Assembly: GCA_023382175.1 (NCBI GenBank) | Contig: JAMCQB010000030.1 | Coordinates: 1 to 32,640 of the forward strand | DNA from: Nitrospirota bacterium | GTDB taxonomy: Bacteria > Nitrospirota > Thermodesulfovibrionia > Thermodesulfovibrionales > UBA9159 | Length of the DNA stretch: 32,640 bases | Reading direction: 5' to 3' | In this document: in pieces, positions 26,204 to 31,846 of the stretch | How the letters are laid out: each line of letters opens with the position of its first letter | Position numbering within the stretch: the stretch's first letter is position 1 | Notes under the pieces: generated by a model | The model's database searches: none | What the model was told of the DNA's origin: nothing | Seen by the model: only the letters and a program-made list of their open reading frames with translations | Translations under genes and position numbers: made by a program

Positions 26204-27167
26204 CTACCCCTTCAGCATCTCTTCAAGAGTGATCAGCACAGAGGCTGCCAGGGCATTTAAGTCGTAGCCGCCTTCCAGGGCGAATACTGCGGGGGCAGGA
26301 AACGAAAGTATCGCCCTCACGATGATCCTGATCCCTTCGTCAGATACCCGTATCGCTGCAAGTGGGTCATCCTTATGGATATCGTATCCGGCCGAAACCA
26401 GGACAATATCCGGTTCGAATTTTGTCATGAGACCTGGGAGGACATTATGGTAGGCAGAAAAATATTCCTTGTCCCCTGATCCGCCCGCCATCGGAATGTT
26501 ATAGGTAAACCCTTTACCCTTCCCTGTCCCGTGCTCCGAATCCCGTCCTGTCCCCGGATAGTGGGGATACTGATGGGTGCTGAAATAAAAGACCGTGTCG
26601 TCGTCCTCGAAAATGTGCTGCGTGCCGTTTCCGTGGTGAACATCAAAGTCAACAATAAAGACCTTCTTGTAGCCGACCTTCTGGGCATACCGTGCGCCCA
26701 CCGCAATATTATTGAAAACGCAGAAGCCCATTGCCCTGTCTGCCTCTGCATGATGCCCCGGAGGCCTCACCGCACAGAAGGCACTGTGGATCTCGCCCTT
26801 CCTGCATCTCTCCACAGCCTCCACAACGGCTCCGGCAGCGAACAGCGCTGCATCAAGACTTCCTTTGGAGAGATATGTATCAGGGTCCAGGTATCCCTCC
26901 CCAACCCGTTTTATCTTCTCCACATAACCGTGGGTATGGACCGCCTCAATATCCTCGAATCCTGCCTTCCCCGGCTTGATATGAATGAGTTGGTCCCAGA
27001 TGGGGGAATCTCCTAAGGTATTGAGGATGGAGATCAATCGTTCCTTGCATTCAGGAATCTCCTAATGTATTGAGGATGGAGATCAATCGTTCCTTGCATT
27101 CAGGATGCCACTTCGGTGTCCCATGGCCGAGGAAGATATCGTCATAGAAAAACCCCACTTTTTTCAT
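26204..27167 (-). pseudogene. HDAC-superfamily deacetylase / acetoin utilization-like gene disrupted by a 49-bp tandem duplication
   Basis: Intact core (RPPGHHA, DFDVHHGNGTQHIF, VSAGYDIHKDDPL). True N-terminus MKKVGFFYDDIFLGHGTPKWHPECKERLISILNTLGDS* from 27167 is cut off by a frameshift. Confidence 0.8.
27006..27103. repeat. 49-bp tandem duplication
   Basis: GAATCTCCTAAGGTATTGAGGATGGAGATCAATCGTTCCTTGCATTCAG repeated immediately with one mismatch (AAGG / AATG). Confidence 0.95.
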
Positions 27168-27242
27168 AACGTAATTGTATACCGAATGCGGTCATTAGTC
27201 AAAACGTTTGCGGGAGAGGGAACTGATACATTAGAATAAACA

Positions 27243-28478
27243 ATGGAGGACAAAAAGTACATCGACGAACTCTCAAAGTGCGTCAGGTGCGGAAGCTGCA
27301 AGGCGTACTGCCCCACCTACGACGAGGGTTTGACCGAGGCCATGGGAGCGAGGGGCCGTCTCACCCTCCTCAGAGGACTTCTGAGCGGGCAGCTGAAACC
27401 CTCACCCCTTCTTAAGGAACGGATATTCAGCTGCATCCTCTGCGGGGCATGTGAAAAGCTCTGCCCTCCCGAGGTGGGTATTACCGAGGCTATTTACCAC
27501 GGCAGGAAATTACTCCACCCTCTGGACCGGAGGATAAAATATCTCGGACATCTCATGCGTTTCTCCGTCCGGAGACCGATGCTAAGCTTCAGGATTGCAA
27601 AGACATTACAGCATATCGGGGTTTCGCCTCAAAATATTCTTGATGTCCTCGGAACTCCCTATCGGCGGCCCCGGGGAGAAAAGAATACCGCCTCTGCTGA
27701 AAGGGGGATACTCCCTTTTACGCTCACCATCCCCGACAGTCCCCTCAGGGATCACCGGCAGGTATATAAGCCCGAAAGGAAGATTGGCCGTGTTGCGCTC
27801 TTCACAGGCTGCAGCACAAATTTTCTCTACCCCCATCTCGGGATATCCCTGATCAATGTTCTCCTGCGTCTCGGGTATGAGGTTGTGCTTCCCACGGGGG
27901 AAATCTGCTGCGGCGCTCCCTTCAGGAGTCTCGGACTGGAGGATGACGCTGTAGAGCTGGCAAAGAAGAATCATGAGACATTCAGCAAGCTGAGTGCAGA
28001 GGCCATTCTGAGCCTCTGCCCCACCTGCATTATCTCCATAAAGACGCACTATCCGAACCTCATAGGCAAAGGGCTGGAGAAGGCCATGGATGTCTCGAGG
28101 TTTCTTATGAATAAGCTGGGATCTCTTGAGCTCTCTCCTCTTCGCCACATGAAATCTGCGACCTATCATGATCCCTGCCACCTGAATTATTCCCTCGGGA
28201 TCAAGAAAGAACCCCGGGAGCTGATTCAGCGCGCAGGGGTAGAGTTGATTGAGGCGAGGGGAGAAGGGTGCTGCGGATTCGGCGGCGTCTTCACCCTGCA
28301 CAATCCGGACCTTTCAAAGGATTTGAGGGATAAGCGTGTGGACGCCTATGCCGGGACAGGGGCAGAGGCCCTCGTCACTGCATGTCCCGGCTGCATGATG
28401 CAACTCAGCGCCGGCATAAAGGACAGGCCGGTTTACCATGTTGTCGAACTGGTGGAGAAAGCGATCTGCCGAGGGTGA
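27243..28478 (+). CDS. GlcF/LutA-like (Fe-S)-binding protein
   Basis: Two 4Fe-4S motifs (CVRCGSCKAYCP, CILCGACEKLCP) and two CCG domains (EICCGAPF, GEGCCGFGG). Confidence 0.88.
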   Translation: MEDKKYIDELSKCVRCGSCKAYCPTYDEGLTEAMGARGRLTLLRGLLSGQLKPSPLLKERIFSCILCGACEKLCPPEVGITEAIYHGRKLLHPLDRRIKYLGHLMRFSVRRPMLSFRIAKTLQHIGVSPQNILDVLGTPYRRPRGEKNTASAERGILPFTLTIPDSPLRDHRQVYKPERKIGRVALFTGCSTNFLYPHLGISLINVLLRLGYEVVLPTGEICCGAPFRSLGLEDDAVELAKKNHETFSKLSAEAILSLCPTCIISIKTHYPNLIGKGLEKAMDVSRFLMNKLGSLELSPLRHMKSATYHDPCHLNYSLGIKKEPRELIQRAGVELIEARGEGCCGFGGVFTLHNPDLSKDLRDKRVDAYAGTGAEALVTACPGCMMQLSAGIKDRPVYHVVELVEKAICRG

Positions 28479-31427: not shown

Positions 31428-31846
31428 CAGTGTCAGTGATTAGTGTCCGTGTCAGATAAAGATTTAATCAAGCCGCTCAACATTTTACTGATCTCTTCCA
31501 GTTCAGTTCGCAGCACAGAATAATCATCCTCGGATAAGTAGCCTAAATCTCTCGCAAGCAAAGAATGATATTTCAGTTCACCGGTAGATCCCTTAGAAAT
31601 GCTGACGAACTGACGAAATTCTTTTCTGCTCAGTCGGTGACTGCCTTCCATCAAATTTGTTGCAATAGATGCTGACGCCCGTCTCATCTGAGATGTTAGT
31701 CCGAACTTCTCAGATTGCGGAAACATTTCTGTCACCTTATATACCTTTAGAGCAAGGTTGTGACTTTTCTTGAACACTTCAAGTTCTTCCATGCTATTAA
31801 CCTTAGACATTTCTAATACTGACACTGACACTAATCACTGACACTT
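31428..31846 (-). mobile_element. Putative non-autonomous cassette: four-helix-bundle ORF bounded by about 27-bp inverted repeats
   Basis: Left 31429-31455 AGTGTCAGTGATTAGTGTCCGTGTCAG; right 31819-31845 CTGACACTGACACTAATCACTGACACT; 26/27 complementary. Confidence 0.65.
31433..31831 (-). CDS. Four-helix-bundle protein (23S rRNA intervening-sequence protein family)
   Basis: LEVFKKSHNLALKVYKVTEMFPQSEKFGLTSQMRRASASIATNLMEGSHRLSRKEFRQFVSISKGSTGELKYHSLLARDLGYL. The start may be ATG 31810. Confidence 0.9.
   Translation of the reverse strand: MSVSVLEMSKVNSMEELEVFKKSHNLALKVYKVTEMFPQSEKFGLTSQMRRASASIATNLMEGSHRLSRKEFRQFVSISKGSTGELKYHSLLARDLGYLSEDDYSVLRTELEEISKMLSGLIKSLSDTDTNH

Follow-up and report, generated by a model that had tools for sequence, protein, structure and literature searches.

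In pneumococcal capsule genes (the type 3 locus, cap8E and tts), tandem duplications that arise spontaneously inactivate the affected gene in a reversible manner, according to passages of PMC4243769 and PMC13410964 that cite Waite et al. (2001; 2003). Microhomology-mediated tandem duplications (MTDs) in the ssp1 gene of Schizosaccharomyces pombe are likewise reported to be reversible in a review (PMC13207564). The locus described here lies in a stretch of 32,640 nt (hereafter the window) from an uncultured Nitrospirota bacterium, where a gene for an HDAC-like deacetylase carries a near-perfect tandem duplication. It resembles the capsule genes in that a short tandem duplication within an open reading frame appears to inactivate the gene; however, the cited passages (PMC4243769, PMC13410964) describe reversion and phase variation as shown for the pneumococcal case, whereas from the window we know a single assembled allele, the copies of which are already one base apart. 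With the ssp1 MTDs, as portrayed in that review (PMC13207564), it shares the two copies, the few bases of microhomology at their bounds and the premature stop, but those duplications are reversible and belong to a eukaryote, while the window case is known from one assembled allele.

The protein itself is closest to HDAC6-type and bacterial class II HDAC-like deacetylases (PDB 5g0h, HDAC6; 5zmp, lysine deacylase). An intact relative aligns with these from end to end, so that both the HPE N-terminal region and the catalytic motifs are covered; in the window copy, in contrast, the N-terminal 26 or so residues are out of frame with the rest. Taking all lines of evidence jointly, we hold it probable that the window carries a real, recent and ordinary gene-inactivating tandem duplication.

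The tandem duplication and the split reading frame

Tandem Repeats Finder (TRF) placed a 49-bp array at positions 27005-27105 (2.1 copies, 98% matches, no indels), the strongest of only three arrays that it lists in the window. In a base-by-base comparison, 27054-27105 was identical to 27005-27056 save for one base, G at 27017 versus T at 27066; such agreement, 51 of 52 bases at the one fixed lag of the duplication, is far beyond chance. Together with a repeat search, these analyses delimit copy 1 of the unit at 27005-27053 and copy 2 at 27054-27102, the latter followed by a GGA (27103-27105) that lengthens the match between the copies to 52 bp. The GGA trinucleotide is common to both copies at the junction and amounts to a 3-bp microhomology at the breakpoints, present but short, and hence weak. 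A first-pass annotation of the window had described a near-perfect 49-bp duplication with a single base difference between its copies; both points proved right, except that the first base of the array is 27005, not 27006, that the repeated string is 52 bp long and that the copies overlap in the GGA.

Other repeats were few. Across 763 kb (about 27%) of the genome, no other near-perfect tandem duplication with a period > 20 bp was detected apart from a 195-bp array, which comprises about three copies (L150:8957-9531), has a period divisible by 3 and possibly represents a repeated protein domain. The window also contains an imperfect 24-bp tandem repeat within the Fe-S oxidoreductase gene (28218-28261; period again divisible by 3), as well as a short array of a 6-bp repeat (ACTGAC; 31818-31845) where two minus-strand open reading frames meet.

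The deacetylase gene is encoded on the minus strand. Upon translation, its native frame begins at ATG 27167, reads MKKVGFFYDDIFLGHGTPKWHPECKERLISILNTLGDS and ends after 38 codons at a TGA (27053-27051), so that this N-terminal piece, which is homologous to the N-terminus of relatives, occupies 27051-27167. The catalytic remainder, 277 codons at 26204-27037 on the same strand, is open only from TTG 27037. Copy 2 lies in the native N-terminal frame and copy 1 in the frame of the remainder; the gene is split because 49 = 1 mod 3, and the TGA stands in the native frame because the duplication brings it there. This is the arrangement that the first-pass annotation had read from the frames, i.e. an N-terminus running into TGA and a rest open only from a TTG.

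The remainder, as delimited in the list of open reading frames, matches the Hist_deacetyl profile (PF00850) with an E-value of 1.2e-87 and 294.5 bits, against a gathering score of 27.9. All catalytic and metal-ligand motifs (HH, DxDxHH, distal D and GGY) are kept, namely GHHAE at 94, DFDVHHGNGT at 130, SAGYDIHKDDP at 215 and EGGYD at 255. The N-terminal strand and the HPE loop of a complete fold are not in frame with the rest: the native frame is limited to its 38 codons, and the remainder begins in helix 1. Judged from these frames, the gene as assembled is a broken member of the Hist_deacetyl family and not a working one.

What the split would remove can be seen in an AlphaFold model of the intact G006 orthologue (mean pLDDT 85.7), in which the part ahead of the position of the TTG forms a strand (3-6), a helix (9-12) and the HPE loop leading into a further helix (25-37). 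According to the model, a TTG-started protein would begin inside helix 25-37, here termed helix 1, and lack strand β1 and the conserved HPE loop. Since the product would lack both elements, loss of function is likely, and the two-copy allele is probably null.

For a working protein to be made from this allele all the same, which we consider quite improbable, ribosomes would have to restart at TTG 27037 or undergo a +1 frameshift at TCC-TGA. A possible restart site can be recognized from its context (27035-27050, minus strand), with AAGGA placed 4 nt before TTG 27037 and the TTG located 13 nt past the stop; yet a wrong-frame ATG (27050-27048) directly adjoins the TGA and would compete for restarting ribosomes, and the shortened product would suffer from the structural loss just described. 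The +1 frame at the TGA runs into ECKERLISILNTLGDSPIWD, and an AGGAG Shine-Dalgarno-like string precedes TCC-TGA in an arrangement that resembles the prfB site; a protein made by such a slip would have 16 residues of helix 1 in duplicate. However, TCC is a poor slip codon, and the Shine-Dalgarno-like string belongs to the ancestral coding sequence anyway. Both routes are conceivable, and we judge them to be minor. RNA structure at the split did not exceed that of shuffled sequences (z 0.94), no Rfam element was found at the duplication site, and a search for anti-phage defence families gave no match.

The intact gene in relatives and the ancestral start

Relatives of the gene were present in 59 of the 61 genomes searched (a count that includes the window's own genome, whose nearest named relatives are uncultured Thermodesulfovibrionales and Nitrospirota). 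In nearly all of these gene relatives, a single open frame spans both the N-terminus and the catalytic part, and nearly all, within the same family or order, are 305 aa or longer. Their N-terminal consensus is MKKVGFxYDDIFLxHETPxWHPExKER, in which Y, L, H, HP and R do not vary across 37 relatives. At the DNA level, the segment that is duplicated in the window is single-copy in five family members. The window and G006 have a glgB / deacetylase / Fe-S oxidoreductase neighbourhood in common, and glgB is also kept by the other family members checked; the window gene and its family relatives are therefore orthologues. Only one genome of the genus turned up, no same-genus genome being among the relatives, and a scan of genome contigs returned more distant relatives only.

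A promoter scan identified a sigma-70-type sequence (TTGACT-17-TACAAT; 27174-27202, minus strand) that ends 6 nt before ATG 27167, and an equivalent promoter with the same kind of ATG spacing was seen in five family relatives. The deacetylase mRNA is predicted to be leaderless, since a transcription start placed some 7 nt downstream of the -10 box would coincide with the ATG itself. The conserved promoter and spacing support ATG 27167, and not TTG 27037, as the probable ancestral start. Because relatives keep the N-terminus in one frame and the promoter and ATG are conserved, it is the duplication that splits the gene. Hence, the proposal that MKKVGFFYDD...HPECKER is the natural N-terminus stands; relatives with a short start and no N-terminal homology, which would have spoken against it, are not what we encountered, as nearly all carry this N-terminus. 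The locus thus combines adjacent near-identical copies, a repeat length that is not a multiple of 3 and a coding sequence that is intact in relatives, as is expected of an inactivating duplication.

Assembly of the duplicated segment

The source of the window is a MAG of 2.85 Mb in 171 contigs, 86.8% complete. From such material, strain-variant contig pieces with either G or T at the variable site might have been joined end to end with an overlap of about 50 bp left unmerged, an explanation that we regard as unlikely but that carries real weight. Strain microdiversity is present, since contig-end overlaps contain single mismatches in 137 and 189 bp, and the base that sets the two copies apart leaves Thr unchanged in the native frame (ACA/ACC), as a population SNP or strain polymorphism would; 23% of the possible changes would be synonymous. 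Moreover, the one-base difference corresponds to a divergence of about 2%, which is unexpected in a very fresh duplication and so counts against a real, recent one.

The properties of the assembly speak the other way. Three contig-end pairs overlap by exactly 127 bases, pointing to an assembly k of 127, and one contig has a 10-N gap; we take the two together to indicate a SPAdes-type assembly. A single 127-mer holds the whole 101-bp array, so that ordinary graph assembly depends on reads that cross it; read support for the two copies is therefore likely, and any read at least 128 bases long should reach across the array. Furthermore, Ns are absent at the site, neither k nor k-1 matches the repeat length (49/52 bp), and no similar duplication occurs in the 763 kb sampled.

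An unmerged join did occur in a relative, in the same segment of the same gene. In CAKKPH010000015.1 (G003), 100 N (L012:1223-1322; L032:2860-2959) interrupt the N-terminus of the gene, with an exact 55-bp duplicate on the flanks. We rejected this segment as an independent natural duplication, given that it is an exact contig overlap around Ns. It does show that such joins happen, and it resembles the window case in size, about 50 bp, and in its place within the gene; it is exact and N-spaced, whereas the window repeat is 49 bp long with one mismatch, has no Ns and comes from an assembly with k = 127. Considering the number of relatives examined, that the overlap lies in the same gene segment is probably a coincidence.

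Weighing these points, we favour a real duplication, for which the exact array structure with its 3-bp junction microhomology, the single copy and single open frame of relatives in the same gene neighbourhood, and a k that exceeds the array length all argue.

Probable recency, proposed reversibility and possible loss of the deacetylase

In the 5' part of the HDAC-like (class II-type deacetylase-like) gene, the duplication probably arose through strand slippage or template switching during replication, from one GGA trinucleotide to another at a distance of 49 bp. Ribosomes that start at the native ATG would then terminate at the TGA after 38 codons, 49 not being a multiple of 3, and the catalytic part would be made only via a weak restart at the TTG 13 nt further on. 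The catalytic remainder shows zero departures from invariant positions (82 of its 277 columns are invariant), although this is a weak test of age, as only about 2 departures would be expected under neutrality at the divergence of the duplication. Because of this lack of departures, the break, if real, would be recent; equally, the absence of any sign of decay elsewhere in the gene counts against the favoured reading.

The genome has a second HDAC-like copy, located downstream of an aconitase gene (contig C43 of G000, L112:6371-6655), whose likeness to deacetylases ends after residue 82. It is most similar to the second copies of G001, G002 and G004 (62%, 63% and 57% identity, respectively), all of them intact, and its C-terminal part was not found in the 86.8% complete assembly. 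The truncation is consistent with a lineage that is losing the function. Subject to the incompleteness of the assembly, two copies that broke independently are more readily explained by ordinary decay of a function that can be spared than by a switch.

The first-pass annotation had left a choice between a recent duplication and a switchable on/off allele. In the latter case, the duplication would form and collapse at an appreciable rate and thereby switch the population's deacetylase between off and on. By their nature, direct tandem repeats of this length can collapse; the native promoter, the ATG and all catalytic residues are kept; and reversible duplication has a precedent in the pneumococcal capsule genes, as cited in PMC4243769 and PMC13410964. 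However, repeated collapse and re-formation would keep the copies identical, and they are one base apart; the one-copy allele of the species was not seen, with only one genome of the genus among the relatives; no relative has a duplicate at the same place as a real feature; and the second deacetylase is broken as well, in keeping with decay. Phase variation is not generally known to act on deacetylases of the housekeeping type. We therefore retain the recent origin, which agrees with a remainder free of departures from invariant positions, and regard the switchable allele as unsupported: toggling in the population appears highly improbable, and the specific claim that a reversible 49-bp duplication turns the HDAC-like deacetylase of this uncultured Nitrospirota bacterium on and off slightly more so.

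If the allele were switchable after all, reversible switching by tandem duplication, and with it phase variation, would extend to a bacterial deacetylase. Most likely, the window duplication is a fresh instance of an already known and common kind of mutation. Its consequence is mostly one for annotation, as an automatic gene caller would report a complete deacetylase of 277 aa beginning at TTG, though the gene is split. Along with the truncated second copy, the split gene suggests that the lineage may lack any functional deacetylase of the Hist_deacetyl family.
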